The notes below the pieces were generated by a model, which made no database searches, had not been told where the DNA came from, and saw only the letters and a program-made list of their open reading frames with translations. From Chiua virens (Eukaryota; Basidiomycota; Agaricomycetes; Boletales; Boletaceae): a stretch of 64,000 nucleotides of DNA. The stretch spans positions 434,001 to 498,000 of the forward strand of contig JAHNUO010000010.1 of NCBI GenBank assembly GCA_019787685.1. Reading direction: 5' to 3'. How positions within the stretch are numbered: the stretch's first letter is position 1; each line of letters begins with the position of its first letter. This document shows positions 10,819 to 38,018 of this stretch, in pieces. Made by a program: the position numbers and the translations under genes.

Positions 10819-11826
10819 CTGAATCTGAGCGACTTGGTTGGAGCTAGGAGACTAAGGAAATGTAAGTTGTCGGCAGAGATTTTGGTAAATAATCAATGAT
10901 ACGGCAGATAACGGGAGGACTTGAAAGAGAAAGTTGTGACCATTTATCGATCATCAACACGAGGTCGTTTCAAATTCAAGGGGGCGAAAAGCTGCGGTCT
11001 GAATGACGTTATCGCTAAGCTTTCAAACGCAAAGCGACTCTCCGACGAATCGGCGCTCCGAGTCAGTTTGAGGCGATGCATCACAAAATTTGGTAAAAAA
11101 TGATCTATCAAAAGAATGCAATATTGTCGTGTGTCATTAGTGTCATCTCATCCATCCATGTATATCAAGTCGTCGTCGATGTAATGCAATGCTAGATATC
11201 TCAAAAGATGATAAGCTAAAAAAATATTATCGAGTAATGTGGCCTCTAAGAGCAGTTCATGACATATAATAACATTCAATTGTCATCCATTTCGAACCTG
11301 ATCATCTCTTCTATTAAATATGTGTTATTTGCGACCATGATATTACATGAGTTGGTAATCTCTAGGAATAGAAGGTATGCACGAATACTGGACCCGGATG
11401 TAATATACTGGAATCAGAGTCCTATCTTGAAAAACGGTGAAGAGCAGCTGGCTTGGAGTGTTCTATAGTGTCGTGACGAAGGAAGGCTGAATGAGAATAA
11501 GACTGAGCAAAAAACTGAGCAAAAAAGCGAGCAAGACTGAGTGTGGAGTCCACGATGAGGCAAGTGCAAACGAGAATCCGAATTGGGAAGCTTTGAGGTC
11601 CAAGAACAAGAGCGCCCGAGCAAGAAACTAAGAAAAAAGCACGTCCGTCGTAGCCTGTAACTGAGCACTGTGATGAGAACCAGAAGTTGAACTACGAGTT
11701 TTGAGGACCGGGAAAGTGGTGGTGAAACTGCAGAAAACGACACTAAAACACTGAGTCCAGGTAAGTAGGACTGTCCACGAAAGTTAAACAGTTTATACCG
11801 TACTAGTACCTGTGAAGACTGAGCTA
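10819..11826. other. AT-rich intergenic stretch
   Basis: It holds the upstream side of the DUF4470-MYND gene and the 3' side of the DUF6698-like gene. The left end of the outer Plavaka-type element should lie here if the DUF6698 gene belongs to it, but no inverted end could be matched to the right side. Small frames at 10,921-11,103 and 11,414-11,743 are not recognisable. Confidence 0.45.
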
Positions 11827-13998
11827 CTAGTACCTGCTCTTCTTCCTATCTCGGCGGACGGTCTGAGACTCGATGGCCTTGGTCTTCCCCTTTGCCTTGG
11901 TGGTCTTTTTAACAGGCACATTCTCTTTATCCATAGCGAGATGATCATCAGCGTCCTGTTCCTCAGCATGTGAATCTGGAGGACTCATCAGGTGTGAGGA
12001 TTGGTGAGATGGAACCCGGCGAAAATTGGCCCGGCGACGGTTTTCAGAGACAGAAGTTGAGGCATCGTTCCTTGATATGGGTTGAGTACCTTCCTGGCTC
12101 GGTCCCCTCAGACGAGGTGGCCGGCGACTTGGAGCTGAATTTGCTGGTGGTGTCATTTGACTCGGAGGCCCAGGCACCTGCGATGCCATGGCCTGCTCAC
12201 GTGAAGTTGACTCCCGGGTTGCGGCCATGGCAGGTGGGTCATGTCGAGGACGACTGGCACTGGCAGTGCGAGGTGAATTTGCTGGGGGGGTCGTTTGAGA
12301 TGGTCGTGACGCCATAGCCTGCTCCCCATGTGAAGTCGACTCCCGGGTTGCGGCCATGGCAGGTGGGTCATGTCGAGGACGACTGGCACCGTGACTGGCA
12401 GTGCGAGGTGAATTTGCTGGGGGGGTCATTTGAGATGGTCGTGACGCCATAGCCTGCTCCCCACGTGAAGTCAACTCCCGGGCCGTGGCCATGGCAGGTG
12501 GGTCATGTCGAGGACGACTTGGACCCACAGCAGGATTTGCAGCTTCCTGAGACCTGGCTGGTCTGGCTACACGTGCAGTCGCCTGAGCATGCATCTTTGC
12601 ACGTAGCGAGCTTGAGGATCGGTTGGACGGATGGCTTGCGCCGATGCTGCGGCCCTTGACGTCGTTGAAAAGAAGCCTGAGAATAATTGAAGATTGTAGA
12701 GATGACGACTCGGAGATTCCGAACTCACTTGTTGTAATATTCAAAGAGCTCTTCCTGCCACTCATCGTCCACAGCCTCCTCTATATCCTCGATTATAGAA
12801 TAGTAGAAGTCACAGTAGTTGAAGTTCCCATCAGATTCCCCCCAACGTTGTCTTGAGCTGATACCAAAACGAGCCTGTCATGAAATAGCAGCAACGTCAG
12901 TCAGGCTTGATCAGCAGTGAAAGAGAAATTTCACAAACTTACCTGGACACAAGCATATGCAATATTACCAGCTACGACTCGTTGAATATCAAGAAGCTCC
13001 GCATTGCTTGCACGGAAGCCCCGAGCCTCATCTCCTGACCATGTTGAAGGTCCAGTGAAGATATGTCGCATCACCTGTCCGTACTAGTTAGTCAATTACG
13101 CAGCTTATTGACCATGCAGTGAGTTACTCGTTCCAAAAAGAATCCACCAAACAACCCATCGTGAATATTCGCCACATCAAAATGATCTCCATTATCAGCC
13201 CATAAAAACGATGGGTATTCGTCGCCACACATCTCGATATCACCACTCTCGAGCCACTGGCGAGTACTGAAATTCACTTGTGTCTTAGTAATGTCGCATC
13301 CATGGGAACGAAAGCAATACATACCGTTCTGGCTCTGCAAGGAAATCCTTGAGTGAGAGAATTGGACACAACATTCGTGCAAGTAATGGATGGTTGAGTC
13401 CCATCTGAGAGCGTGACTTTGAAGAAGCGTAAATTGGTGGGATAACTGCGTCCTTTGCGGGGTCTCGTGGAAGGTAACCAGCTATCTTGTCCCTCAATCG
13501 AGCAGTATCGTTTGCACGAAGGGTCTTCATTGTCTTGTTGATCTAATAGTATCCATTTGAGTAATCATTCTGACCAACTATATGCGCATATATGCATGTA
13601 TACTTACCAGCTTGAGTACCTTCTGGAGGTCTTGGTATCGAGAACTGTTACTCAGAAGCATACGCATTTGGGGAGCAACGTGTAAGGCCATTTGATATGC
13701 CCGCTTGTATCGAGTGATGGTCTTCTCACCACTACAATGAATCTGTGAGTTAGTCTCAAGTTTTGGACCGACCTGGACTTACAGCTGTGCAAGGTATTCT
13801 TGACGCTCTCGCCTATCATCGTCGACTTCTTCTCCCTCTGAGTCAGCATGACGAATCGCGTCCTCCTCTTCCTTCACATAAAGAACAACTTTGACTACCT
13901 TCCGCATGTCTGCAAACATGTCGAGACAGCGTAGCATGGTGCGTCCAACATTAACAAATGACGCACGATCAAGATCCGATGCGAGACTCAGATCGTCA
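11827..13998 (-). pseudogene. DUF6698-like protein, C-terminal segment (gene split by the KDZ element)
   Basis: Downstream two thirds of a minus-strand gene whose first exons lie at 32,274-32,697. From 13,998 the reading is DLDRASFVNVGRTML, then an acidic segment ending YLAQL at a GTAAGT donor (13,783). Then come exons with TRYKRAYQMALH, KIAGYLPRDPAKDAVIPP, SRSQMGLNHPLLARML, DGLFGGFFLERV, MRHIFTGPSTW, GNIAYACVQ and ARFGISSRQRW. The GLFxGxxLxRVxRHIFTGPS block and the following Ala/Tyr block are what I recognise as DUF6698, a fungal family of unknown function. The last exon (11,827-about 12,620) is a long low-complexity tail with imperfect repeats containing PRHDPPAMA and a basic end (KKTTKAKGKTKA). 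No stop or frameshift was seen other than the insertion. It stands head to head with a Plavaka transposase, so it may be a transposon accessory gene. Confidence 0.65.
12150..12540 (-). repeat. Tandem repeat inside the DUF6698-like tail
   Basis: About three and a half imperfect copies of a roughly 105-130 base unit. Each encodes a SRPRHDPPAMA-x-TRE-x-TS ... EQAMAS ... TPPANS segment. The copies keep reading frame while differing by short in-frame indels, which suggests expansion under coding constraint. The peptide is Pro/Ser/Ala-rich and probably disordered. Confidence 0.8.
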
Positions 13999-15312
13999 CA
14001 CTTCAGTCACCTACTTAAGGGTACCTCTTAGGTCCTTCTTTCTCTATCTTGGGTCTGACCTAAGAGGCACTTATAGGGGGGGAATTCCCAACAGTAAGGG
14101 CAAAGTGAATGCCCAAGGGCATTTGTATGTCACTCAAGTGATCTTCCCAAAGCAATTCCCAAAGGATATTCCCAATGCCCATTGGGAATTCCCAATATGG
14201 GGTGTCAGGGGTCCTCAGAGGCCTGCTTTACCATAATTGTAATATAGAGTGCTGTGTAACCATAATTAATATCTATGTGCACATATAGAGTACCCCCCCA
14301 TTCCTCTAATTCTAGCACCATGAAGTTGTTTGCCTGATTCATAACCCACCTGTTTGTGCAGATTGAGTATCTGACCCCTGTTTCTTCAATTCTAGCACTA
14401 TGAAGTTGTTCACCTGATTCATAACCCACCTGTTTGTGCAGATTGAGTACCCCTGAGGCTCTTCCTCCAATTCTGGCATTATGAAGTTGTTTGCCCGATT
14501 CATAACCCACCTGTTTGTGCAGATTGAGTACCCCCCTCTTCCTCCAATTCTGGCATTATGAAGTTGTTCACCCAATTCATAACCCACCTGTTTGTGCAGA
14601 TTGAGTACCCCCCTCTTCCTCCAATCCTAGCACTATGAAGTTATTTACCCGATTCATAACCCACCTGTTTGTGCAGATTGAGTACCCCCCTCTTCCTCCA
14701 ATTCATAACCCACCTGTTTGTGCAGATTGAGGTACCCCCCTCTTCCTCCAATCCTAGCACTATGAAGTTGTTTACCCGATTCATAACCCACCTGTTTGTG
14801 CAGATTGAGTACCCCCCTCTTCCTCCAATTCATAACCCACCTGTTTGTGCAGATTGAGGTACCCCCCTCTTCCTCCAATCCTAGCACTATGAAGTTATTT
14901 ACCCGATTCATAACCCACCTGTTTGTGCAGATTGAGTACCCCCCTCTTCCTCCAATCCTAGCACTATGAAGTTGTTTACCCAATTCATAACCCACCTGTT
15001 TGTACAGATTGAGTATCCCCCCTCATGACTATGGGAATTCCCAATGAGTATGGATGGTGACCAGGGAAATTCCCCAAGCACTCTGGGAACTCCCCATGTC
15101 CTCTAGGAATTCCCATTGAGTATGGATGGTGGCTAGGGGAATTCCCCAAGCACTCTGGGAACTCCCCATGTCCTCTGGGAATTCCCATTGAGTATGGATG
15201 GTGGATAGGGGAATTCCCACTGAGTATGGATGATGGCTAGGGGAATTCCCTAAAGTACTCTGGGACTTCCCAGTGAGTATAGGTTGGTGGCTAGGGGAAT
15301 TCCCAAAGACAT
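13999..15312. repeat. Left terminal inverted repeat of the KDZ element
   Basis: Layered structure. There is a unique outer block (13,999-about 14,285) matching the right end in reverse complement. It contains palindromes such as GGGAATTCCC. Then comes an array of about ten units of roughly 77 bp (14,290-15,020), each with CACCTGTTTGTGCAGATTGAG. Some units are shortened to about 48 bp. Finally there are about five units of roughly 70 bp (15,030-15,312) with GGGAATTCCC-type palindromes and a GAGTATGGATGGTG core. Repeated peptides appear in several frames here, but I regard them as incidental. Confidence 0.88.
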
Positions 15313-15380
15313 CTCATAATATATCTCTTTGGAGTAATTTACATTGGATAACTCATCATCATTGTCATTCAATTCTCTCA

Positions 15381-18300
15381 TCAGTGCATCTCCCAGTCAT
15401 CACCTTGTCCATGGAGGTGATACTCATAGGCTAATGCAACCTCCTCAGTTTCTGCCATTAGTTCAGTATCATCAATGCCAGCATCCCATAGTTTTGCTCC
15501 TGCCTCTTCCTCTTCCTCCTCCTCACTCAACTCATCCTCCCCTATTCTATCTTCAGCACTATCCTAAATAGTAAGTTAGTATCAATACAAGCATTACAGA
15601 AAAAACCCTACCTTTTGAGTATGAGTAACTATAAAATCTGCTGAACATGTAAGCTTACAACAATCAGAGGTAAATACTCACCACAGGTAGTGTGTGATTG
15701 ATGCATGGCAACTGCAGTGTGGTCAAGGGTAATGCTTGAGGGCCCCCAGCTATCTGGCATAGCCCAAGCACAAGGTATGTGACAAACTTGCATGTTCCAT
15801 CTCACACACAGCCTACATAATTCAATACCATGCAAATCTAATTGATAGAGATCATCCACACCTAGTATGCCAAAAATGAGCAATACAAGATTTGAAGAGA
15901 TACACTTCTCACCAGCTTCATCTCTTGCTTTTTGAAGACTGTTCCATTTCCCAATCATCCATTCTTGCAGAACACAGCGCTCACGGCAAAGTCTAGTTTC
16001 CTCCTCCACACAACGGTCATATTCCAATAGGTAGCGAATACCCATGTGGACATTTTCATCAGCAAGCCACAGTGGGGGATTAGGGACAGCATCATCAAGA
16101 CCTATATCTTGCCATATCTCATCATCAACATCCAACTGGAATATACCTTCACGAGATATAAAGGGTGGGGAAACTGCCCCCAGAGGAGCTGTGCCAGTAT
16201 CAATCAGTGTCTGCAGCTGTTTGCAAAGGGTGTTGTAGTTGCTGACAAGCTTGAGGATGGTTGGCTCGCGTCACTTAATAGCTGCTAGAACATTGTCCTG
16301 CAGTCTGTTCTCTATAGCATTCAATCAGCTTCAGTACTAGTCCAGAGATGAACCAAAGAGACATACCATTGACCACAGCACGGTATGCACACTCCAACCG
16401 TTCAAGCTCAAACTTGCGTTGACAAAGCCTCTCCTGTATGCGAATTTTCACTGCACGGGCATTCATACGTATCTAGCATGAAGCACAATCAGTTCCTGGT
16501 TGACTCACAATTTTATTACACTTACCTGTAAATAGATGTCGCGCTTGAGTGCTGCAAGATTAGCTTGATCAGACACACCCAATGCTGCTCGGCGTTTTTT
16601 GATAAGATCAGTGGTGTTCAACAATTTGTGTCTTGCTTCGACAAGTTGAATGTTCATGTTGACAACATTACAGACATTGTCTGTGGCAAGTCTATGCTCC
16701 ACATCATCAACAATAATTTGTTGATGCTCTAGAATCTTTTCGAGTGCTAGAATCCTGGCTATTTCTTCCTCACCCTTGTTCTTTGCTTGTCCTACAGACG
16801 ACATTCAATTTCACGAACAAATGATAAGAAACAACATACGAGCTAGAGGTGCTGTTTGATGAGCAACTTGAGCTGCCCATTGAGCTCGAAGGGTGGATTC
16901 ATCAATACACAGTAATGTGAGTGACTCAGATGTTGCTGCCTTCTTTTTTTGACAATGTGTCCACCGGCGTTGGAGCCATTCGCCAAGACATTTGAGCGAC
17001 CTGGCATGCAGGTGGCAAACTTGACTGTCGAGTACAAACAACCGTTGATGAAACTGCAATGAGAAGAATGTTAATAGCCAAAGACTTCAAGATGACAATA
17101 AGACTCACCCCAGACACTCGAAGCACAGGGATGAGTGGTTTGAGGAAACTCCACAGACGCTCACACCCTTCTCCATCTGAGAGTCCGAAACCAACACGCT
17201 TTCGAGGGTGATAGACAATTTGGCATGGCCATTGATGGCCATATGCATGAAATACGGAAATAGCAAAGCTAAGGTGGGAGAGAATTGTCCCTGACAGCAG
17301 TCCCCACTTCCTACAACTCCATTCCAACTGACAGCCAATATCATAAAGTAGCTCTACTGACATGTCTGCAGGGAGATGGTCGAAGAGGCGCTGGAGGAGG
17401 ACAAGAGCGTAATGTTGTTTTTCACCAGCAGATGTCATGTTGACAAGCCACAGCACACGATCATGGCGGCAAAGCATCGCCATAAGTCCAGTATCTGCAA
17501 AATACCGAGTGCTGGCCTTTTCACGTTTCTCATCGGCAGCAATGAATGAATCGCCACAAGCATCGAGGACAGATGTTGGAACCTTCATCCCATTCTCATA
17601 CCTATCTTCTTCAGCAGCCGGCATGCGTGTTCTCTTCTGACGACCATTGGCATGTCGACATTCCTCCACGTATGCTTCCATTGCTTTGGTATCAGACTCA
17701 GATATAAAAATAGTTTGTGTAGGATTAGGAGGATCCTCGATCGAATCATTACGAGCGTTGCATGAGCGTTTCTGAGTGAAGCATGCATCAATGCATACAA
17801 TGAGGTCAATGCTACAAACTCGTGAACATGATGTATTTTCCTGGAGAAATAGAAACATACTGTTTGCATCACAATCACGTCTCCAATCCTTCCCTCCGAA
17901 ACACAATGGACAGCGTGACCGGAGGAATGTGCTGGGTTCTGTACGTTCACTGTCCAACATATGCACATCACTATCATCCACAACAGGTGTTCGAGCAGAG
18001 ACAAGGTCAGCCACATGTTCAGCAACCAAAGTGGTCAGGACAAAGTACCAATGATATGCTAGGCTGAATCGTCGCCTGAGATTACCCTGGCCAAAAAAGT
18101 CAAATTGTGGCATCCAGTGAGGAAATAACTGACCTCTGTCGCCAGCTTATATCCTCTGTCATTCAGAAAGGCTTCCAATGCCTCAGTCCAACCAGACATA
18201 TTGGGTGACGTGCGGACAAATAAAGCCTTTACCAGCTCCAAAACACGGAAGTCAACAGCAAGGGAAGGCAACACTGGTGCACAACCAAAAAGGCCAATGG

Positions 18301-18984
18301 CGACCAGTTGTAGGGGTGCTGGATGACAAGGGCAAATGGACAACGTAACAGTTTCAAGGCCTATATGAATGTTAGCTAGCATAATAACATACTGCCAAGT
18401 GACTCACGATCAAAATAAAGGCAAGTGACCACTAATCGCCTTGGAATACAAGAACTCCCACACAAAGGAAGATCGACGGCATCCACATTTGCTAATGTGG
18501 AGAGCGACTTAGTGACGCGGAGATACTGCATGTAGGGCTTCAGAAGGGCTGGGATAACAACTTGGGACCACCGACGATGTTGATTCTGTCGTTTCTGAGA
18601 TGCGGAAGTATAGACAACTGGAGGGTCGCCGAAAATTTGGATGGTATCAACAAACGCATCCCTGTCCTCCGGCGGTATGTGAACAGCAGGATCACGAGTA
18701 GGAGAGCTTGGGTGATTGTCGACTAAATAACCTTGTGAAAGGTGTTGATGACCAGGTAGTACAAGATACGGTGAAGGGCGACAAAGATAACCAAGGTTGG
18801 AACCACGCACGCGAGATGTTGGCAGAAGTCGCGACTGACAAACGGTGGATGGAATGGACGATGCTCCGGCTGTAATAGGACCGCTCTCTGGTGCTTCAGT
18901 GTCAATAGTTGGGTTACTAACACGAGCTGATTTTGTTGGAGACGATGAGCGAGAAACACACAGGCGAGGGCGACGCACGGCCAT
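15381..18984 (-). CDS. KDZ transposase with CxC1-type cysteine cluster
   Basis: Cut-and-paste transposase of the KDZ superfamily and the likely mobiliser of the surrounding element. The ATG at 18,984 starts MAVRRPRLC. After a variable N-terminus comes the cysteine cluster CPCHPAPLQLVAIGLFGCAP with LAVDFRVLELVKALF, which fits CxC1. The catalytic core has DACFTQKR (about 17,780), LLYDIGCQLE (about 17,345) and FGLSDGEGCERLWSFLKP (about 17,150-17,200), consistent with a D-D-E triad. A C-terminal segment follows with REPTILKLV, VDDEIWQDIGLDDA, NPPLWLADENVHMGIR, an acidic run and a TGA stop at 15,381. Many short introns were checked, for example a 49-base GTATGT...TAG before CIDACF, and each kept the frame. 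I found no stop or shift, so it may be functional. It is by far the best preserved transposase in the window. Confidence 0.9.
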
Positions 18985-19422
18985 AGAAGAATGGACAGGA
19001 AATGAAACAGAAGCTAGCCTGACATGAAGTCAGAGAAAGCACAAAGACCCGAAGTCGATGGAGAAAGGCGTGTTTGACACGAAGTCAACACAAGGAGACA
19101 CGTAGTCCCAAATGAGTAAGGAAAGGAGAGGAAGTATCACGACGAGCGAAGTCTTTTCGGGTGCTGGGAAACTGGATCAACAAAAGTCAGCAGCAGCATG
19201 TCAGCAGGGAGAGGAAGGATCACAACAGACGAAGTGTGCTTGGGTGCTGGGAAACTGGGTCAATGAAAGTCAGCAGCAGCGTGTCAGCATCATGCAGTAA
19301 TACGTGGAAACGAAATAGATTACATATATTCATATAAAACATGTAATGATAAAGAAGAAGGGAAGCACGAACGTAGCAACATTGATATAAATGAGATATT
19401 TCCATCCTAGCCGCAGTAGGCA
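18985..19422. promoter_or_regulatory. Transposase upstream region with iterated GACACGAAGTC motif
   Basis: The motif occurs as GACATGAAGTC (19,021) and GACACGAAGTC (19,076), with looser forms at about 19,048 (cGAAGTCg) and about 19,097 (GACACGTAGTC). All lie within about 120 bases of the transposase ATG. The same motif, in the same orientation relative to transcription, precedes the gene starting at 22,192. A binding site or conserved 5' leader is an inference. The 3' flank of the next gene also lies here. Confidence 0.45.
19126..19290. repeat. Imperfect direct duplication, about 80 bp
   Basis: Two adjacent similar copies, each with GGATCAC or GTATCAC, then GGTGCTGGGAAACTGG, then AAAGTCAGCAGCAGC. 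They differ at scattered bases. It is non-coding as far as I can see, between the transposase start and the end of the neighbouring gene. Confidence 0.75.
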
Positions 19423-21279
19423 TCATGCAGGGACACGGTGAGAGACAATTGGAGGGCGCCCAAAGTAGTCGAAGAAGGTTTGCGTGTAAAACATGCACGC
19501 ACTTGACAGAACATTGAATTGTAGAACAGAGGAAAACGACTCCTTGGCGATAGGCGAGTGCAAACGAGAAGGTGACTCAGGCCAGGAAGACAGAAGTATC
19601 CGCCAGCTCTCCAGGAATGGATATGCGATGTCTGCTGAACCCCACATTCCTTGCTTGGTTGTCGGCATATCATCCTCCCACATCACAAGTCCTGATTCTC
19701 CTGGAAAGATGCTGTGTAGCAATTCGGTCCTTTCTTCGGGTGCCTCTTCCCAGATCTTCGGAACCATTGCACGATCCAGTGCCAATAGCTCATACCGGAA
19801 GCTCAGCTCGTATATCTCCCACAAGATTGACCAAATTAGGTGAGCAGGTGGGTCCTCAAGTGTCGAAATGGCGATACGCTGGTTTCGCCATAGCACAGAG
19901 TCCTTCCCAGCCCACGTCTCCCCCTGAGCGTGAACGAGAACATCCCCAAACAGAGTCTTCGCAGCCATTTTCTCCTGAGCTGATCGGGTCGTCGCATTGT
20001 TGGTGGCAAGATCTGTTGGGATCAAGTTTAAAAAGTCCCGCCAGGTTTGAGGGACAGGAAGCGGACTTGGGGGGTTGTGGTCAATGCGACTAATCCAAAT
20101 GGGTCGCGCAGCAAGCCAATTGGCGCAGAATAATTTCCGCCTCTGAGGTGATGCCGGTGTGATGAGCAGCGCGGGTTCAGGGAATTGATACCCGGTATCC
20201 ACGACACCTTTTTTGACTCTAGCAGGATCCCTATCAACCTGCCTGAACGCTGCAACCCATTGAGGGAAGGCAAGTGGCATATTAGTGGCATCAATCTCCG
20301 CCCACTTATCTTGACCACTCTTCGGGTTATGTGCCTTTTTGTGTGCTGCTATCGAAGGTTGAAATATATATTAGAATAAACTTTGGTTACAGTGAGGTCA
20401 GAACATACCGGACGCCGAATACACTTGCCGCTGGGCATGGTTGCGTGCATTATTTTGCCTGTTTGCTTGTACACGCCCACCTGACGCCCCTCGCAAGGAA
20501 GAGGCAGCTTGGTTTGCTTGAGGAGCAACATCGGGAGCAACGGAAGAGGGAGAATTGATGACTGAGGTGCGGTAGGTGCTTCGAGTGTTCAAATGGCGTT
20601 CGGTGCCTCCAGGTCCCCGATGAAGAGTGGGTAAAACGGTGACAACACCGTTGTGTACGAAATTCTTCTGGATGATATGGTTGGGGCGGGTGACGGCGAC
20701 AATGTTGACAATGTTGATATCCGGGGGAACAAACTCCGGAGACCGAACAAGCCAAACCGGCATGCCAGCACGGTAAAGCCTCTCACAAGTGGTGAGGTCT
20801 TTTGTAAAGCAGCCCATCAAGATGGGGTCGGTAGGTTTGGGAAAGTCGGGATAGGTGAGGACGAATTTGTAGTCGTTGACATATACCATATGGGCAGTGA
20901 TGTCGAGAAGAAAGCGCTGTAATTGCGCGACATAGAGGACGACGTCGAGGAAGGTGAGAGGGTGATGCTTGAGAATGTTGAGAAGATGTCGGGCATGAAG
21001 AATCATTCCTGTGACGATATCTTTCTTTCCCTCCCGATTGGCCTTCCATTCTTCGACAACCGGTCGTGCGAGGAGGTAGAGACGATGTAAGTGATAGTAA
21101 GCGTTGCGGCTGAGCTTGCCTATGCGAAAGGGTGATTCTGGATTGATTAACTCGAAATCTGCTTCGGTGGGTGTCCAGCACTTGTAATGTATCTTGGATG
21201 GGTCAACGGGGTTGAAGACCGTTTCGAGGGTGAACCTCTCTTGAATCCTGCGCAACTCTCGTCGACGTTTGGTACGCAT
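19423..21279 (-). CDS. Conserved basidiomycete hypothetical, KDZ cargo gene
   Basis: At least two exons. Exon 1 begins at the ATG at 21,279 (MRTKRRRELRRIQERF) and ends near 20,410 after RQVYSASG. An intron leads to AAHKKAHNPKSGQDKWAE at about 20,345, and the frame runs on to a stop at 19,423. Recognisable blocks are LYRAGMPVWLVRSPEF, ANWLAARPIWISR, KTLFGD, LIWSILWEIYELSFRYELLALDRAMVP and LHSIFPGESGLVMWEDD. I recall this arrangement as a widespread Agaricomycete family that accompanies transposons, but I know of no assigned function and see no catalytic motif. It lies on the same strand as the transposase and head to head with the gene at 22,192. No stops or shifts were seen. Confidence 0.7.
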
Positions 21280-22191
21280 TTTTCATTCCATCTTTCTTAT
21301 TCCTCCCACTAATTCTTCACGTCTTCCAGCAGGTACAATCGTTCGTTCTCGCAACCCTCTAACCACAAATCAACTACCTACGCTTCAGTGAGTTCATTCA
21401 TTGTTTTCTTCAACCCACAGACGATGATTAAGTGCAACAGATGCCGTTCTTGTGCATCTAGTATGGTTTTCATGAGTGGTGGGCATCCTTTATCAAAGAA
21501 CGGACCTCTACCGCTCATCGTGAGTTCATCGACCACCAATTTCCATTAAACCTAACTCATACCATTCTTGATCACTTAGCGTCTGTGCGTTCTATGAGTA
21601 GTGGAGGGATTTTATCAATGAGTGGCCCTGCACCGTCTCGTCTCGTGAGTTCATCGTTCATCAGCTTTCACAACATTCTAGCCCATGCTGTCTGTTTCAG
21701 AATAAAGGCCCATCGATCCCGTGACTGAAATTAATGGCTGTAGAGTGATTCTTTGTAACTAGGTAAGCCTTCTTATGGCTGGCGAGCACTGAATGATCCA
21801 AATGAGGTAGCCTATCGTTCGTATTACTATGCCCAGAATGGCTCCTCCGAAGCCATTGAAAACTCAACCATGGTTATTCATAGTCCCATCATTTAGGTAA
21901 GTCGCTATGGCGTTGTTTTTACGTTGAAGCTTATCTAGGAGGATTCGATTTCATTTATTCTGCCCTCGTTATCCCCATTGATTACCAACAGGGTCTCATT
22001 GTGAAGAGCTTATATTCCGATGACTTGGAGCCATTCCATGTCCCAGCTTTCCCTTTGATTTCAGCGCAACTTCGTGTCAGCTTTTTCAACCGTCCAGACT
22101 TCATGTCTGGTTCGTTTTCCCTTAGACTTCGTGTCAAGGTTTTCTTCACTGCGACTTCGTTGTCAACAACGGCTTCGTTTTCTTATCCAAG
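21280..22191. promoter_or_regulatory. Divergent promoter region with duplicated exon-like modules
   Basis: Between two head-to-head cargo genes. Two modules, about 21,463-21,517 and about 21,600-21,650, share TATGAGTRGTGG...ATTTATCAA...GTGGCCCT-like sequence. Each is followed by a donor-like GTGAGTTCATCG. A third GTGAGTTCATTC donor lies at about 21,391. They look like spliced 5' leader or small coding exons of the plus-strand gene, but the reading frame does not carry across. The last 130 bases before the ATG hold four GACTTCGTGTC-type motifs (22,068; 22,097; 22,125; 22,153). Confidence 0.4.
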
Positions 22192-23800
22192 ATGCCGTCC
22201 ACATCACCCCCTCCGACTGGACGACCAACCCGTCATGCAAAACTGGCTCACAAGTTCATTAAACCGACAGTGCGTTTCGTATGCCTAACGAAGGTTTGGT
22301 ATTAAATTTGTGCTATCTACAGCGGAACGATGCTCGGACCAAATTGTTGATTAGGCGTCCAAAAAAGTCACCGACTCCACAGGTAAAAGGTCGGATGTTT
22401 TGTGCCATGATGAGGTGACGAAAGGTTTCAGGATGACCATACGAAGGAAGATTTACCGCAAGCTCTCTTTCTCGAGGGAGAACAGGAGCCTGATGAAGAT
22501 AGTGGGCAAGGAGATGACCCCCACTGCGATGCAACCAATCACGAGGTAGTGGATGAGCGGCCTGCGAGGACGCGCAGAAAAGGTAACCCTTTCGTATCAA
22601 GATGCCAGGATATATTGATCAAATATAAATGACAGGTACTGCTCTGAAAGATTAGTCCTAGAATGACTGCATCGTCGAAAATGTGGACAACACAGATGAT
22701 AACGACCTCCACCATGGTAAGTTCCACCATATTCAAATCCGGCCCTGTGATTTACTATGTTGGCAGATGGATCAGGCGACGACAACGACGACGACTGGAA
22801 ACTGGATGAGCTGCAGGAAGTGCAGCAACAAAATGGCACGTTCTACCTTGTTCAATCCTGTTTAATTATTTAAAGTCTTCACAGATGAGTCGAGCAATGA
22901 TGATGCTGATTGGCTGCCAGAAGATCAGGACGAGTTACAACAAGCACCGGAGCGAAGTGAAACTGCGTTGCGAGTCTCGCAGTTCAAGAAGAAATTGGCT
23001 ACTATCCATCGCCGCAGGCTCCAACCGAGTTCCCCACACTACGATATACCACAACCCCCAGACAATGATCCACTGATTTTTCCGGCATCAGATGATGAGG
23101 ACCCAAATCATGCTGAGCCGGTCGATCAGCCCGATGATTTGAATGACGAGGACGAATGTTCCAATATGTTAGGGGCAAAGGGCAAAGTGATTCACCGTCC
23201 CGGCCCCTTACCTGATGAGGCATGTCGAAAAGCCCATGAACTTGGTGATAGTGTCATGAAGGATATCAAAGCCTTAGCAGTGCAGTACGGCAAGCCTGTT
23301 CAGCGGATCCTCGAGGAAGCGGGTCTCAAGAAGCTTGCTACCCGAGCTGAGCAGCGATGGAATCTTCACCAAAAGTGGTATGCATTCTGCCACCCCATTG
23401 CCAAGGATGGTAAGTGCAATGCTCTCATTAGCTTTCTAGTATTGACTCCCAGACAGAGAGTGTCAAAGATTATCGCTCTCGACAAAAAGAGCACTACGAA
23501 ACACATGGTGATGAAGAAGAACATCCTGAGTTGTGGAAGGACATAAGAGAACATGGAACTGCCATTGTTAGAGAAGGGGAACTCTCTGCAAAATCTCTAG
23601 CTGCACTGATTGCAGAAGCCCGTGAGCAATTTGCAAAAGGAGTGAGTGTTAAGCCTCGATGTTGTACTTTATTCACTTATCAGCCATTCATGCAGGCATC
23701 TGGCTGGAGTCGCCTAGAAGGTGTAGAAGTCATTGGTATGGTGGTTTACAAAGGCCATGACCCATCTGCACGCCATGCCGCTGGTTGGTTTGGGGGATCT

Positions 23801-24355
23801 TGTCATATACCGCTCCGTTCTCCGTTCCTCCGGATACAACTCCGTATCTCTTAGACCATAACTCCGGGTCGATCACCCTCAGGACGCAACTCCGTGATCC
23901 CGGACCTCCGTTACGTATATATGTTTCCTCCTTTTATATTAGTACATAACCTGTGTCTCGCTTACGAGCACAGCTCCGGCTTTCTCAGTACCCGACTTAC
24001 CTCCAGCTATGTAGTTTCCCGATCTTCCGTCTTACTCAGTTCTTACCAACTCCGTTACTAATCTCCATTCCACTCCGAGTATATAAACTGTAGTACCATG
24101 ACTGTGTACCCTTAGTCTGAATATTAGTTTATTGTACGACTCACTCCGAACACTCCGTAAGACCTTGACGGTCTCTACTCCGCTCGACTCCACTTTATGT
24201 GTTGAGTCATATATCTACCTCCGTTTTCCGCACGTCCGAAATATAGGGACAGACTGTGACAAGGGCGCACCACATACGGTGAAGCCAAGTCCCGTCCGAC
24301 GCTACAACTCCGGAGATCCGGAGTTGGCTAACTCCGAGTCACACGGTCTCTAACA
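23801..24355. mobile_element. Solo LTR, 555 bp
   Basis: Begins TGTCATATACCGCTCC and ends GGTCTCTAACA, so it has TG...CA ends. It is flanked by a perfect 5-bp target duplication GATCT (23,796-23,800 and 24,356-24,360). The inside is rich in ACTCCG repeats, with a TATA-like ATATAAACTG near 24,080. No internal domain remains, so it is the product of LTR-LTR recombination. It lies in an exon of the KDZ cargo gene. Confidence 0.9.
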
Positions 24356-25757
24356 GATCTACCTTCGCCCGGGAGTTAATCAACACCCATGAAATACAGC
24401 TGGCTAAGTGGTTGGATTATGTCACAACTGTGATCAAGTGCGTCGTCCACCATCTTTTTCCACCCTTTTCATTTACTGTGGATTATTCAGATATAAAGAG
24501 ATTGATCCTGCTATGACTATTCCTGTCCCTAACATTGATATCAATGTGGACGTGCGTGACATATCAAACATCGATGACGAATTTGAACGTGGAACAACTG
24601 AGGGTTTCCGTGATTGGCTTCGGTATATTGTGCCAGTGATGATGGGCAAAAATATCAGTAAGTTTCTTGTATTCTTTTAATGATGATGCTCACACACCAC
24701 AGAGGGGTTTGGTTGTACAGATGGCAAGAATGTTCGGTGGCAATCATTCGATATATCGACATAAGTTAACCATTACCAACTGGCCTGTTGGTGTTCCCAG
24801 TCCTCCTTCGTGGGTACCTCACAATGCCACGATTGATGAACTCATTGCTGTTGTTGGACCTTATCTCAAGAAACACATTCCGGGGCTCCATACACGCCAC
24901 ATTGTACCAAATGCAGGTAAAAGAAGGTTTATGAAAGTGAAGAACAAGCAGCGCCATCTGGAAACTCCGGATGTTGAGGTGTTGGTTGGGAGATGGTTAC
25001 CGGGTGAGTCTTAGTTGTGTCCTTTGGTTTCTTGCTTACCTTCTGTATTATAGAATGGTGCTCTTGGTTGGAGAACAGTGATCCTAGAATGTTCAACATA
25101 CCACTTGTTACTGATACAGCATCACAAGCAACATGCGTCCTCAGGCAATGCCACAAGTTCCTTCAGGATGTTCCTCGTGATGTCAGCATTCCCCCTGAAG
25201 CACCATCAAGCCACTCCTCCAGTCCATCACTCTCTTCACATGAACACACTCCTTTTGTAGCTTGTAAAAAGGCCCAGGATAAGCAACCTCGTCATGATCA
25301 TGTAGAGTCCCTACCTGGACCTCATTCAAAGTCCAGCTTAAACTCATGCAAGCATCCTCGTGATGAAGAGGGGCGGTTCCTTGGGGAACATACTGGACCA
25401 AAGCATGCAAGGCTAGACCCCCAAGTGAGTATGCCTTGTAATATTTATTTTATCTGTTCAATATTAAGTGTCATAGGAATTGCATCCCCAGCGGGCACAT
25501 CGGCAATTGTAAGCTATCTAGTCATTCAGTGATTTGACATGACTCATAGTGTTTAGACAATCTAATGCTCATGTGGTCAAGATCCCTCGCCATCATGTGC
25601 CACCTCAAAATTTGGTAGCCACTCGTCCAGGGTATGTTTGTTTTGTAGTATAGGATTGTATTTGTCACTGTTGTAACCATGTTTGACATCCAGAAATTTC
25701 CACCAAGATGCATATCAAGAATCACGTCCTGTTGGTCAGGGTTCAGCTCGGTACCGT

Positions 25758-26369
25758 TGTAGGGAATAGGTATTCCCTGTGCTCGCATAGCACGTTTCCG
25801 CACCCTGTTGTCACCCGATCCCAATCCTGATCTGTTTGCTTGTGCGAACTCATCCGGATTGCTGTATCCACGCCTGATTTGCCTCGGACTCTTTTATTTT
25901 ATTTTTGATGCTCCTTATTCGTACTTAGCATTGGCTAGACCATGTCACGCAGCCCTTGCAGGGACGTTCGGGTGCCTCTCGAACTTTATACCGTACGAAA
26001 ACCTTCTTTTTTATTATCCTTACTTAGGACGAGTCTGAGGGTATTCCCGAGGACTATAAATTCACTGTATTGACAAAAATACAGTAGCTTTTGCCTGTGC
26101 GCATCTGTCTCACATCGTTTTCGGTCGACGTTCGTTTTCTCTCGCTCTCCTCGTATTTTCTCGATCCGGATTGGACTGCCGCGTCCGCTTTTCTATCCGT
26201 TTTAATCCGGATTCGCCCCGGATTCATCTCGGACTACTCAAAAACCATTATTCGTCGTTCACCAACTCAGTGTTGTCCCTGGGTCGAACGGAATCGCATT
26301 CCTTCACCCTCTTTCTAATTCTTTCAATCCCCCTGAGTATTGCACTACAGCCGGGATATATTACCTTCA
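25758..26369 (+). repeat. 5' LTR of the gag-only element
   Basis: 612 bp. It opens with an inverted repeat GGGAATAGGTATTCCC at 25,762. A TATA-like GACTATAAATTC lies near 26,052. It is identical to the 3' LTR wherever I compared them. Confidence 0.92.
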
Positions 26370-26371
26370 AC

Positions 26372-26391
26372 TGGAGCCCACCGCGAGGGAC
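26372..26391 (+). other. Putative primer-binding site
   Basis: TGGAGCCCACCGCGAG begins right after the LTR and a short AC spacer. A TGG start is what pairing to a tRNA 3' CCA end requires. I cannot name the tRNA without a search. Confidence 0.6.
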
Positions 26392-26637
26392 TTCCAGAAG
26401 TTGGTACAGACAACGACAACCCATCCACTCATTATTCACCTCACTCACGACACACCTTCGCTTCACTCTCAGAAAATTTTCGCCTCGGTTAACACCTCCT
26501 TGCATAGCATCATCGCCCCTATCGAACCCTGCACCACTACCCTTACGCCGCCGCAGAACTCTAAGTGACGTCAGACAAGTCAGACGACACACCTGTCACG
26601 GCACACGGTGACCTGTGCCACCATCCGAGTCGTTACT

Positions 26638-28380
26638 ATGCCATCACCCGGATATCTCCTACAGCTGCCCTTCCGGACTGCCTCTAGTGCCCCACGTTTC
26701 GATGCGACCATTCCATCACAGTTACCTGCCTTTTTGAAATATGTTGATCAGTTAGCTACGAGCATTGGACTCACGGACGCACAGAAGATTAATACAGCCA
26801 TCTGGTATGCCTACCCAGAAGACGCCGAGCTATGGCGGACATCGCAGCAAGTACTCGCAGCGCAGCCGGATTGGTCAATGTTCGTAGCGGATGTCCAGCA
26901 CTGGTACTCATCATACAACAATGACTACCCACTTTACGTTCCAGAACCATCCATCGACATCACCACCGACCCCACCCTTGCCTCAGCATCCACGTCATCG
27001 AATCTAGCAGATCACATGCCGCAAAGTGATTCCATCCGGGTCTATTCAAGGATAGTAGAATGCGATCCTGAGCAACCCGGTAATGTCTCAGTTGAACCCG
27101 TCTGTGCTGATCCGCCTCTCACAGCTGTCAAATTTGCGGTATCGCATGCCGAAACACAGGAGCAAGATGAACCGGATTGCCCCAACACATCTCACCCACT
27201 ACGCTCACCCTCCTCAGGCACAATCTCTCTGCCACCGGATGTACTCATGCATACATCAATCTGGACGTTCTCGGATCCATCACCACGACCGATCCAACCA
27301 CCTTCACCCTCTTTGGATATGCCACAACCCGACTCGTCTACCCCATCGCTCTCACCATCAACCATGCCAGCCTTGCCACCTCTGTCACCTCGGATGACTA
27401 TGAAGTTGCCACCGATGAACCTTGCACCACCACTTACCCATCCGTCACATAGTACCGGATTGCAGCTCAGCAGATCGACGTTTTCGGCTATGACAAAACG
27501 GCCAACCGGGTGCATACTCTCACGACCACCTCACTTGCCTCCAGAAGACACAACTGTTTTATCACCACCGGATCCACCATCATCGCCATCCGTTTGCGAT
27601 AGCAGCATGCCGGCTGCGTCACCGAAAACATCTATCCGGATAGCTCGGATCATGTCGGATCCATCACCACCCGCATTGCTCAGTCAGTCTCTCATCCCTA
27701 AAGCTGTCCCATTGCCTATCACATCCGAACCGCTGTTGCTGCATTTACAGCCGTATCCGAGGATTTGTAGTATCTTGCCAGGTCAATCGGTTTCTGGCCG
27801 GGTATCGAAGCTAAACGCACTCTTCTGCGCAGTTCCTATACCCCATGAAGTGCGCAAATTGCAGCCACTCTCATTGCCCTCGCCCTTCCTCAACAAACCG
27901 CCATCTCTGCATTTACGACCGTATCCGAGGATGAGCACCTCACTGGTTCGATCGGTTTCCGGCCATGGATTGAAGCTAAATGCACTCTTCTGCGCAGTTC
28001 CTATGCACCATGAAGTGCGCACATTGCAGCCACGCCCATCACCCTCATTCTTTTTCAACAAACCGCCCTCGCTGCTATCGACCTCGCCCCTCGCTTCCGC
28101 AACCATGCCACCACCCATCTCATCCGAGCCGCCACCTCTACGTTTACGGCCGTATCTGAGGACCCATACCTCACCGGTTCAATCGGTTCTGAGCCGGTTA
28201 TCGAAACTACGCATGCCCTTCGCTGCTCTTCCAATCCGTTTCCCTCTCTCTCGATTTTACACTAATGCATGCGTCTTTTCATTTCAGTTTATGCTTCAGC
28301 CGTCTCTGCCCACATTGGGTTTATTTGGCGACCCGGCCGACATGGTTCGGTCACATTTTCCCTTTGACCCGGGAATCTGA
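26638..28380 (+). CDS. Gag-like protein of the LTR element
   Basis: About 580 residues from the ATG at 26,638 (MPSPGYLLQLPFRT). The first about 110 residues contain APRFDATIPSQLPAFLKYVDQL, then AIWYAYPEDAELWRT and a Trp/Tyr-rich HWYSSYNNDYP. This resembles the capsid-like region at the head of fungal Gypsy gag proteins. The rest is a Pro/Ser-rich linker. From about residue 360 there are about three imperfect repeats of a 60-70 residue unit containing RPYPR and KLNALFCAVP. No zinc knuckle was found. It is the only long frame of the element. Its intactness and the identical LTRs suggest recent activity in trans. Confidence 0.7.
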   Translation: MPSPGYLLQLPFRTASSAPRFDATIPSQLPAFLKYVDQLATSIGLTDAQKINTAIWYAYPEDAELWRTSQQVLAAQPDWSMFVADVQHWYSSYNNDYPLYVPEPSIDITTDPTLASASTSSNLADHMPQSDSIRVYSRIVECDPEQPGNVSVEPVCADPPLTAVKFAVSHAETQEQDEPDCPNTSHPLRSPSSGTISLPPDVLMHTSIWTFSDPSPRPIQPPSPSLDMPQPDSSTPSLSPSTMPALPPLSPRMTMKLPPMNLAPPLTHPSHSTGLQLSRSTFSAMTKRPTGCILSRPPHLPPEDTTVLSPPDPPSSPSVCDSSMPAASPKTSIRIARIMSDPSPPALLSQSLIPKAVPLPITSEPLLLHLQPYPRICSILPGQSVSGRVSKLNALFCAVPIPHEVRKLQPLSLPSPFLNKPPSLHLRPYPRMSTSLVRSVSGHGLKLNALFCAVPMHHEVRTLQPRPSPSFFFNKPPSLLSTSPLASATMPPPISSEPPPLRLRPYLRTHTSPVQSVLSRLSKLRMPFAALPIRFPLSRFYTNACVFSFQFMLQPSLPTLGLFGDPADMVRSHFPFDPGI

Positions 28381-29612
28381 CTGTTTCTTTTACTATCATT
28401 GAGACACCCTTACCCTTTCTCCACAGCATTATCCGGATGACCGGGAGGTCATCAGATATGGCCTACCCAGGGGGGAGGGGTCTACAAGACCACCTCGGTT
28501 TCCACACGCAACTTTTCGCGTTTTCACAATTTCAGTCATTGAAATCATTCTTTTGATATCCGTTTCATCTCTGTTTCGTCCCCGGTATTCGTCCAGCAGA
28601 TCTCTATCTCACCCCGGGTTTAGTCCGGTGATCGATCATTACTCATCGAACAAGAAACCATCGCAGAAAAGAAAGAATACCATATAGAAAAACCAACACA
28701 CGATCGTATAGTCCATTCATTTCTTCTACCACTCAATTCACTACTTCGTTATTGCAATCATCTAGAGTTCGTGCCCTCATCCGCTACATACCACTTCTGC
28801 TCTTCAAACGCGCATAGGCACAACGCACTTTATCCGGTCGTATCCGGATCGTTTCCGGACGTTTTTAGGTATCACAAAAGGGCATCCGTTGCAGGTATAG
28901 ACGCGAAAGACGCACGACGAAGACAAGCCAAGTCGGACACTTGCCAATTGGTTTCATTTCGTTTTTTTCTCTTTCTTATCATTTCTTTCACGTTCAACCA
29001 TACAGTTCTTTTTCTTTGAATTTGGATCACACAGCGAGCAGCGAGCAGCGGATAGGAAACTCGGCCGACCGGATCACATTGGATCACACCGGACACATGC
29101 GGACAAGCAGAATTCACGCAGGACGATCGACGCATACCAGAGATGCTATCACTGCGATGAACACGAAACCATCACACACACTTCACATCGCAGATTACGG
29201 CCATCCTTCATCCATCGTGCCTTCATGCGCGAGACTATAGACAACAGACACACAGAAAAGCCACACATCACACCGTCGCGATCACTATCTGATCCTGTCA
29301 TTTGCGGATCATCGTCACTGTGCCGCTATCACCAGTCGTCATTGTCGTTCCTGTCGTTTTCGGGTCATCATCACTGTGCAGCCACCATCACTCTCGTTGT
29401 CATCATCATCATCTCTGTCGTCATCTCTGTCGTCGTCTCTGTCATTACTATCATCACTCTCATCGCTGTCATTGTCTCTGTCGACGTATCCGTCACCCTT
29501 GCGTATCCGGACCCATCCGCTGCCATCTGCAACTGTCACGTTGAACCACCGATCGCATCCCCATACACATCGGGCTGACTGGGGACAGTCAGCATCTAAA
29601 GTCCCCGTCGGG
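28381..29612 (+). other. Non-coding internal part of the LTR element
   Basis: It holds a purine-rich GGGGGGAGGGG tract near 28,470 and a CATC/GTC-rich microsatellite-like run at 29,395-29,480. An inverted GACTGGGGACAGTC lies near 29,577, just before the 3' LTR. Frames in the low-complexity part are not convincing genes. Confidence 0.6.
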
Positions 29613-30224
29613 TGTAGGGAATAGGTATTCCCTGTGCTCGCATAGCACGTTTCCGCACCCTGTTGTCACCCGATCCCAATCCTGATCTGTTTGCTTGTGC
29701 GAACTCATCCGGATTGCTGTATCCACGCCTGATTTGCCTCGGACTCTTTTATTTTATTTTTGATGCTCCTTATTCGTACTTAGCATTGGCTAGACCATGT
29801 CACGCAGCCCTTGCAGGGACGTTCGGGTGCCTCTCGAACTTTATACCGTACGAAAACCTTCTTTTTTATTATCCTTACTTAGGACGAGTCTGAGGGTATT
29901 CCCGAGGACTATAAATTCACTGTATTGACAAAAATACAGTAGCTTTTGCCTGTGCGCATCTGTCTCACATCGTTTTCGGTCGACGTTCGTTTTCTCTCGC
30001 TCTCCTCGTATTTTCTCGATCCGGATTGGACTGCCGCGTCCGCTTTTCTATCCGTTTTAATCCGGATTCGCCCCGGATTCATCTCGGACTACTCAAAAAC
30101 CATTATTCGTCGTTCACCAACTCAGTGTTGTCCCTGGGTCGAACGGAATCGCATTCCTTCACCCTCTTTCTAATTCTTTCAATCCCCCTGAGTATTGCAC
30201 TACAGCCGGGATATATTACCTTCA
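29613..30224 (+). repeat. 3' LTR of the gag-only element
   Basis: 612 bp, same start (TGTAGGGAAT), end (TTACCTTCA) and length as the 5' copy. It is followed directly by CCGTT, the target-site repeat, and the resumed cargo-gene exon. Confidence 0.92.
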
Positions 30225-30639
30225 CCGTTCTGAGGTATCCCGAGTTTATCCTCGTCACGAACCTCCTCGCCGTCATGTTGTTGGCAGATCATTGCAGGGA
30301 ATGCGTCATTCACGTTCACCATCATACCAGAGGAGAACTCATGTTCTTCGTGATGTTTCTCCTGTTGCAGGCCCATCTCGTGCACAATATGTGGAAGTGG
30401 GCAGTGCTGCTGAATATGAGGATTTGTCAGATACTGCTAGACATTACTATGATACCTACTATGACTGAGCTATGGTACATACCATTCAGACTTTACTTGT
30501 AGTATCAATGATTACATGAATAGTGTTGCCTTGTGAATGATCTAATGGTAGCCACTGAGGAAAGCAAGTATCAACTTTATATGCAAGATAATGACTTTGT
30601 ATATGTGGTGAGGAGAGTTAAGTGATCAGTGATTGCTAC

Positions 30640-32273
30640 CATCCAGTGTCTTGGAATTCCCAAGTGTTAGGAGAATCCCCCCAACCACCATTCATAGTGC
30701 TTGGGGATTTCTTCTGAGAGTGCTTGTGGAATTCCCCTGACTACCATCCATACCCAGTGGGAATTCCCAGAGTATTGGGGGAATTCCCCTAGCTACCATC
30801 TATACTCAGTGGGAATTCCCAGAGTACTTTAGGGAATTCCCCTAGCCACCATCTATACACACTGGGAATTCCCAGAGTACTTTAGGGAATTCCCCTAGCT
30901 ACCATCTATACTCAGTGGGAATTCCCAGAGTACTTTAGGGAATTTCCCTAGCCACCATCTATACACACTGGGAATTCCCAGAGTGCTAGGGAATTCCCCT
31001 AGTCACCATCTATACTCACTGGGAATTCCCAGAGTACTTTAGGGAATTCCCCTAGTCACTATCTATACTCACTGGGAATTCCCAGAGTGCTAGGGAATTC
31101 CCCTAGTCACCATCTATACTCAGTGGGAATTCCCAGAGTACTTTAGGGAATTCCCCTAGTCACCATCTATACTCAGTGGGAATTCCCAGAGTACTTTAGG
31201 GAATTCCCCTAGCCACTATCTATACACACTGGGAATTCCCAGAGTATTGGGGAAGTCCCCTAGCCACCATCTATACTCACTGGGAATTCCCAGAGTACCT
31301 GTGGGAATTCCCCTAGCCACCATCCATATTCACAGGAAATTCCCCTAGCCACCATCCATATTCACAGGGAATTCCCAAAGCACTTGAGGGAATTCCCCTG
31401 ACTACCATCCATATCCAGTGGGATTTCCCAGAGTACCTAGGGAATTCCCCTAGCTACCATCCATACTCAATGGGAACTCCCAGAGGACTTGGGGAGTTCC
31501 CAGAGTGCTTGGGGAATTCCCCTGGCCACCATCCATACTCATTGGGAATTCCCATAGTCATGAGGGAGGATACTTAATCTGCACAAACAGGTGGGTTATG
31601 AATTGGGTGAACAACTTCATAGTGCTAGGATTGGAGGAAGAGGGGGGTACTCAATCTGCACAAACAGGTGAGTTATGAATTGGGTAAACAACTTCAAAGT
31701 GCTAGGATTGGAGGAAGAGGGGGGTACTCAATCTGCACAAACAGGTGGGTTATGAATCAGGTAAACAACTTCATAGTGCTAGGATTGGAGGAAGAAGGGA
31801 ATACTCAATCTGCACAAACAGGTGGGTTATGAATCAGGTGAACAACTTCATAATGCCAGAATTGGAGGAAGAGCCTCAGGGGTACTCAATCTGCACAAAC
31901 AGGTGGGTTATGAATCAGGCAAACAACTTCATGATGCTAGAATTAGAGGAATGGGGGAGTACTCTATATGTGCACATAGATATTAATTATGGTTACACAG
32001 CACTCTATATTACAATTATGGTAAAGCAGGCCTCTGAGGACCCCTGACACCCCATATTGGGAATTCCCAATGGGCATTGGGAATTCCCAATGGGCATTGG
32101 GAATATCCTTTGGGAATTGCTTTGGGAAGATCACTTGAGTGACATACAAATGCCCTTGGGCATTCACTTTGCCCTTACTGTTGGGAATTCCCCCCCTATA
32201 AGTGCCTCTTAGGTCAGACCCAAGATAGAGAAAGAAGGACCTAAGAGGTACCCTTAAGTAGGTGACTGAAGTG
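30640..32273. repeat. Right terminal inverted repeat of the KDZ element
   Basis: Mirror image of the left end but with different copy numbers. An inner array of roughly 53-bp units (about 30,650-31,550, about 16 copies) has two GGGAATTCCC-type palindromes per unit joined by AGAGTACTTTA and CTAGCCACCATCTATAC. It is followed by about five copies of the 77-bp unit (31,565-31,975, CTGCACAAACAGGTGGGTTATG). The outer unique block ends CTTAAGTAGGTGACTGAAGTG at 32,273. The palindromic array is about three times longer than on the left, while the 77-bp array is about half as long. Confidence 0.88.
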
Positions 32274-32697
32274 ATCGTCGTTATCATTGCCACTGTCAGA
32301 TGGATTGCCATCGGACTCATTTGATGTCCTAGTATCAAAAAGGTCCAATCCGAGTCAGCATACACGCATGATATCCAGAGACGACACACCTGGGGCGTTT
32401 TGCAGCTTTTGATTGGCCTTTCTTCCTCCGGGTCGGTTTCTTCTTTGGTGGAGCTTGTGCGGGCTCCTCGGACCCAGAGTCGTCCTCTTCATTTGATGTC
32501 CTGTCCGAGAGGTCCGATCAGTACACACGATATCTAAGCGACTCCAAGTCAGAGATAACACACCTGGGACGTTTTGCGACTTTTGATTGGCCTTTCTTCC
32601 TCCGGGTCGGTTTCTCCTTTGGTGGAGCTTGTGTGGGCTCCTCGTCCTCAGAATCTTCCTCAGAGGTGAGCATGTAAAAGTTTGGCCGAGTACGCAT
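32274..32697 (-). pseudogene. DUF6698-like protein, N-terminal exons (severed by the KDZ element)
   Basis: Exon 1 (32,564-32,697, ATG at 32,697) reads MRTRPNFYMLTSEEDSEDEE followed by a basic TRRKKGQSK. Exon 2 (32,390-32,500) repeats most of exon 1, with TSNEEDDSGSEE then the same APPK-KPTRRKKGQSK. Exon 3 (from 32,328) reads TSNESDGNPSDSGNDNDD and runs straight into the transposon at 32,273. The introns (32,501-32,563 and 32,329-32,389) start GTGTGTT or GTGTGTC and end CAG/TAG. The acidic-then-basic repeats suggest a disordered, nuclear-targeted head. The continuation DDLSLASDL is at 13,998 going left, in the same frame. Confidence 0.75.
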
Positions 32698-37636: not shown

Positions 37637-38018
37637 CCACCAGTGATACACTATGATCAATTTAGGGGTATTCGACGGGATAACCTGACTTAACATTATC
37701 AGAACTTGATCAATTACGACCGTTCATACCAATTATATGGTACAGTATTATCTATTCTCAGTATTCAATGATAATACATAATGTTGCTAGTTTTTATGTA
37801 GTCTGAATGGCTGTATTTCGGCCGATGTTATCAGAGCTTATCATAATTCTGCGATTTTTGTGATGTGCGACAGAAACTTCAACCTCCAAGTTTTAATCCA
37901 CATATTTCAGTTGAATCCGGATGACATGGCATTCGATTATAGGTACTTTAGTCGCAAATTCGATCTTGCGAATGCGTCCATGGTGCAACACTGCCCCACC
38001 GACTCACTGGCAACCACC
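37637..38018. other. AT-rich spacer between Plavaka element and MFS gene
   Basis: No gene recognised. It probably contains the right boundary of the outer transposon, but no inverted end or target duplication could be matched to the left side. Confidence 0.45.

Follow-up and report, generated by a model that had tools for sequence, protein, structure and literature searches.

A KDZ transposon in an exon of a DUF6698 gene carried by a PlavakaB-type element in Chiua virens

Introduction

What kind of sequence is interrupted when a large transposon appears to split a gene, a gene of the host or part of another mobile element? This question is raised by a 64,000-nucleotide stretch of the Chiua virens (Boletaceae) genome assembly GCA_019787685.1 (contig JAHNUO010000010.1, positions 434,001 to 498,000 of the forward strand; hereafter the window, in whose own coordinates positions are given), where an 18.3-kb KDZ transposon was predicted from the sequence alone to sit in an exon of a DUF6698-like gene. 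Other places in the same genome are given by contig number (C1, C5 and so on), the window lying on C10. We assign a probability of about 95% to the locus being a three-layer transposon nest, with a PlavakaB-type DNA transposon on the outside, the KDZ element inside it, and pieces of long terminal repeat (LTR) elements inside the KDZ element.

Results

Borders of the KDZ element and its family in the genome

The KDZ element occupies positions 13,999-32,273 (18,275 bp; C10:447,999-466,273; minus strand, as judged from its transposase), with CACTTCAGTCACC at 13,999 and the reverse complement of this sequence finishing at 32,273. It is flanked by 7-bp target duplicates, ATCGTCA at 13,992-13,998, in which the last base has been changed at a CpG, and ATCGTCG at 32,274-32,280; the chance probability of seven bases agreeing with no more than one mismatch is approximately 0.0013. 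The original prediction had given the inverted ends, the flanking pair and the insertion point correctly to the base. The terminal inverted repeats (TIRs) extend over 13,999-15,310 (plus strand) and 31,244-32,273 (minus strand), being 100% complementary over the outermost 198 nt, and repeat-rich and gapped further in. Local alignment of the two ends, which includes long gaps, gave 935 matches among 977 aligned bases in 1,365 columns, with a score of 828 vs. 34-61 in five shuffles.

The 13-base end of the element, whose termini are CA..TG, has 14 exact copies in the genome, 12 of which form six pairs approximately 14-20 kb apart, whereas the two unpaired copies lie on C5 and C20. All six paired copies are bordered by 7-bp duplicates, four of them perfect (CACACCA, ACCCTGG, TCGACAT, and TATTCCT) and two with one mismatch (GTAGATG/GTAGGTG and the pair in the window). 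These recurring pairs bear on the explanation that the arrangement is an assembly chimera, since duplicates at all six pairs would be unexpected from chimeric joins and every layer of the nest has its own ends and duplicates. Although the region is repeat-rich and all element borders were read from assembled contigs alone, we consider such an artifact highly improbable.

Two other members of the family lie in or near open frames matching PF09994. The copy at C1:3,561,730-3,577,632, flanked by a perfect 7-bp duplicate, is located inside such a frame, and exonic insertion may thus not be confined to the window. The copy on C27 is located approximately 1-2 kb upstream of PF09994-matching open frames, one above and one below the cut-off.

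The interrupted DUF6698 gene

The interrupted gene was modeled on the minus strand with nine exons and eight GT..AG introns, encoding 705 residues with no internal stop. Exons 1 (32,564-32,697) and 2 (32,390-32,500) precede exon 3, which the KDZ element divides after residue 100 of 705 into an upstream part (32,274-32,328) and a downstream part (13,783-13,991). Modeled exons 4-9 (11,827-13,731) follow at 13,731-13,608, 13,542-13,325, 13,266-13,128, 13,074-12,943, 12,874-12,729, and from 12,676 to the stop at approximately 11,827. When the insert is removed, the two parts of exon 3 read SDSGNDNDD-LSLASDL in frame, and the joined model has a single DUF6698 (PF20414) match (E-value 7.9e-55; 186 bits vs. 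a cut-off of 23.7) at residues 216-426, covering profile positions 3-206 of 206. An exonic target in a DUF6698-type gene, with the frame kept across the junction, had been predicted and is borne out by this model. Because the domain starts downstream of the insertion point, the junction falls outside the Pfam match, which on its own is no proof that the halves belong together; that they do follows from the empty site described below, which runs through the junction. The product of the gene has presumably been lost in the window copy. Exon 2 largely repeats exon 1, the two (32,390-32,697) having in common a near-identical lysine/arginine-rich stretch, which represents a small internal duplication.

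An empty site in a second copy

The uninterrupted arrangement, which the original prediction proposed to seek in related strains, is present in the same genome. A second copy of the region (copy B; C10:1,586,459-1,603,542) lies on the opposite strand of the same contig, approximately 1.1 Mb from the window copy (copy A), and joins both flanks of the KDZ element via one ATCGTCG in a gap-free alignment of 672 bp with 98.5% identity. The site reads contiguously GACTCAG-ATCGTCG-TTATCATT. The last base of the duplicate is G in copy B, as in the right duplicate of copy A, and A in the left one (CpG to CpA). The 8,467 aligned positions of copies A and B (both aligned parts) include 112 differences, of which 91 are CpG transitions and one is a transversion, and the mismatched left duplicate therefore fits the regional decay.

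The site in copy B could also be a healed one, from which a KDZ element was removed by precise excision, rather than a site that preceded insertion. KDZ elements are regarded as cut-and-paste DNA transposons, a mode of transposition that would allow such a loss; however, copy B shows no footprint, has one exact ATCGTCG, and yields no match within 14,000-32,272 when 10 kb of it is compared with the whole window. We therefore regard excision as very unlikely and a pre-insertion site as the preferred reading.

Copy B carries LTR-type insertions of its own, namely a 7,843-bp insertion in exon 1 (ends TGTTACG..CGTAACA; 5-bp duplicate GTTTC) and a 722-bp solo-LTR-like insertion in exon 4, with ends of the same kind (5-bp duplicate CATTT). 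Elsewhere in the window, a 755-bp solo-LTR-like copy (TGTTACGG..CGTAACA, with GAAGA on both sides) occupies 59,275-60,029 and shows 85% similarity to the end of the 7,843-bp insertion of copy B.

The target gene lies within a PlavakaB-type element

The homology between copies A and B begins exactly at CATCACAAAA (window position 11,079) and ends at TTTTGTGATG (window position 37,865), with outer flanks that differ. These borders delimit a PlavakaB-type DNA transposon (11,079-37,865), which forms the outermost layer of the nest and measures 26,787 bp with the KDZ insert and 8,505 bp without it; the corresponding net length of copy B, after its insertions are removed, is 8,509 bp. Each copy has its own 2-bp target duplicate, CA/CA in copy B and TG/TG in copy A (11,077-11,078 and 37,866-37,867), and CATCA..TGATG termini are present at both ends in both full copies. 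The transposase open reading frame (ORF), on the plus strand at 33,619-34,455, matches PF18759 with an E-value of 5.6e-17, improving to 2.2e-21 if the frame is continued through its stops, taken as X. Searches with the terminal 20-21 bases, allowing at most two mismatches, yielded two occurrences of the left end, each an exact match, and five of the right end (three exact, two with two mismatches).

On C14 there is a third, incomplete copy (94%), which shares the right border, lies between different flanks, and stops inside DUF6698 exon 1. The breakpoint means that exon 1 is common to all three copies, with the whole gene demonstrated for two of them. In 6 kb at this place on C14, searched on both strands, there was no DUF6698 match; the strand of the gene gave a single hit below threshold, to an unrelated family.

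The DUF6698 gene thus sits inside PlavakaB in both full copies, and the target of the KDZ element was itself a transposon, the locus being a nest of transposons. The original prediction had tacitly treated the target as an ordinary host gene, in which case copy B would be a segmental duplication of a chromosomal region. Such a gene would agree with a model whose nine exons are clean and free of internal stops, and with the abundance of DUF6698, which has 221 matches across the genome. The exact borders at 11,079 and 37,865 nevertheless led us to reject both the host-gene reading and segmental duplication as the origin of copy B, as the flanks differ, each copy has its own 2-bp duplicates, and the partial C14 copy has the same right border in another setting; we consider this explanation very unlikely. 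We propose instead that the DUF6698 gene is cargo or a helper of PlavakaB, rather than an independent host gene.

Coding content and inner insertions of the KDZ element

The KDZ identity of the element, as predicted, is corroborated by its transposase core ORF (16,926-18,146, minus strand), which matches PF18758 with an E-value of 6.8e-57 (193 bits vs. a cut-off of 26.6). Just upstream of this ORF lies a CxC1-like cysteine cluster (18,155-18,355, minus strand; PF18802, E-value 7.4e-6), whose score of 26.5 bits is borderline, just under the curated cut-off of 26.9. We also considered a TET/JBP gene as cargo and rejected it: none of the 23 Tet_JBP matches in the genome falls within the element (C10:447,999-466,273), and none was found in Pfam scans of the minus frames of 15,300-23,102 and the plus frames of 22,500-30,900. 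Elsewhere in the genome, KDZ and Tet_JBP matches with similar scores occur 2-3 kb apart, for example on C25, C12, and C5, as well as at C10:948,163-950,902. A TET-carrying KDZ family therefore seems to exist in the same genome, but the window copy is not a member of it.

Two LTR-type insertions are nested in the KDZ element. The larger (25,758-30,224; 4,467 bp; TG..CA; 4-bp duplicate CCGT; plus strand, as judged from its longest ORF) has LTRs at 25,758-26,369 and 29,613-30,224 that are identical across 612 bp, and holds an open frame of 603 residues; the plus-strand frames of this insertion match no Pfam family. It is possibly a non-autonomous element whose sole protein would be gag-like. The smaller insertion (23,801-24,355; 555 bp; TG..CA; 5-bp duplicate GATCT) resembles a solo LTR. 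Both insertion sites are intact in a KDZ copy of 14,345 bp on C19, which thereby provides empty sites for the LTR layers. The C19 copy also contains approximately 1.3 kb that is missing from the window copy near 21,204, a difference that alters the ORF at 20,398-21,282 in its N-terminal portion; the difference may be either an insertion in C19 or a deletion in the window copy. After removal of both insertions and their duplicates, the KDZ core in the window measures 13,244 bp, so that the description of a very large KDZ element is not supported, approximately 5 kb of the 18.3-kb span consisting of LTR-type insertions.

DUF6698 genes in the rest of the genome

A general association between DUF6698 and Plavaka was unsupported. 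Among the matches listed, which were collapsed by hand into 80 DUF6698 loci and 110 Plavaka places, none of the 80 DUF6698 loci lies within 5 kb of a Plavaka match, with 1.8 expected, and proximity is close to chance; the Plavaka gene of the window is itself absent from the Plavaka matches listed.

Another high-copy repeat, longer than 6 kb, represented by C1:1,229,001-1,235,152 and 12 near-identical places and ending in ...TCTCGTGATA, also has a DUF6698 gene close to its end. A 3.15-kb part of it recurs at 14 places besides the query (96-100% identity), with ends within 4 bp of one base, and the adjoining 3 kb at 13 full-length or nearly full-length places including the query (95-100%). The sequence past the right end is different in all four copies inspected. 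There was no Pfam match in the 3 kb upstream and no inverted copy of the right end in the 6 kb examined. The modest new point is that the DUF6698 gene occurs on Plavaka and on at least one other high-copy repeat. A limited literature search with the terms "DUF6698" and "PF20414" found no paper.

Discussion

The borders and target duplicates of the elements, together with the empty sites of the KDZ and LTR layers, allow the history of the locus to be ordered, since the nesting places Plavaka first, the KDZ element second, and the LTR pieces last. In this reconstruction, the 8.5-kb PlavakaB element inserted first, generating a 2-bp TG duplicate and bringing its transposase on one strand and the DUF6698 gene on the opposite strand. 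The KDZ element, with its long inverted ends, then entered exon 3 of this gene, duplicating ATCGTCG. From the length of this duplicate it follows that the cut was staggered by 7 bp; it was probably made by the KDZ transposase, and one of the two duplicates later lost its CpG. Finally, the 4.5-kb LTR element and the 0.55-kb solo-LTR-like piece entered the KDZ element.

Several observations weigh against this reconstruction. The empty site belongs to a paralogous copy of the element and not to an allele of the same locus, and the DUF6698 gene of copy B is itself interrupted, no intact copy of the gene having been seen. In addition, the Plavaka copy on C14 retains only exon 1 of the DUF6698 gene. 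Among the matches listed, 3 of 80 DUF6698 loci lie within 10 kb of a Plavaka match, against approximately 3.6 expected by arithmetic, which is no enrichment.

Nested transposons are an ordinary phenomenon in a repeat-rich fungal genome, and the present case is a very cleanly resolved one. Three transposon layers are recorded to the base and in order, with an empty site within the same genome, so that the insertion rules of this KDZ family (a 7-bp duplicate and long inverted ends) can be formulated with no further sequencing. Caution is also called for, as a gene that looks split by one transposon may belong to another. A concrete lead is that DUF6698 travels on mobile elements. We tentatively suggest, at somewhat less than even odds, that mobile elements carry DUF6698 as a module, similarly to TET/JBP genes captured by several transposon lineages, and that this module may assist transposition or protect it.

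It is not unusual for KDZ insertions to be resolved. The original prediction considered the exact insertion point of such an element seldom resolvable, yet 7-bp duplicates could be identified at all six paired copies in this genome, and published passages on Cryptococcus neoformans describe KDZ elements inserted in a reporter gene with target duplicates, and KDZ2 and KDZ3 in both introns and exons (PMC12810828). As described there, KDZ1-3 encode a KDZ transposase with a CxC1 domain, measure approximately 9-11 kb, and have TIRs of 139-241 bp and duplicates of 8 bp (KDZ1) or 4-8 bp (KDZ2 and KDZ3) (PMC12810828). Compared with these figures, the window element has a larger core (13.2 kb), a 7-bp duplicate in six of six pairs, and gapped inverted ends of more than 1 kb.

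The duplicate length also differs from the 8 bp given for the Zisupton and Dileera lineages in the relevant part of PMC12730594. Closer in this respect are Kyakuja-1_LB and Kyakuja-2_LB of Laccaria, which the same source describes as having 7-bp duplicates and CA..TG termini, lacking TIRs, and carrying TET/JBP genes (PMC12730594). The window element has the same duplicate length and termini, whereas, in a comparison made by description, it differs from Kyakuja in its 198-nt perfect TIRs and in having no Tet_JBP match within its borders. Because Kyakuja traits are shared but TIRs are present, we assign the family to KDZ only, and to no lineage within it.

The outer element agrees with PlavakaB, for which the part of PMC12730594 dealing with these transposons gives CATCA..TGATG termini and target duplicates of 2-3 bp; the window element has the same termini, 2-bp duplicates, and a PF18759 transposase. 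The cargo discussed there is TET/JBP (PMC12730594), whereas the Plavaka element of the window carries a DUF6698 gene.

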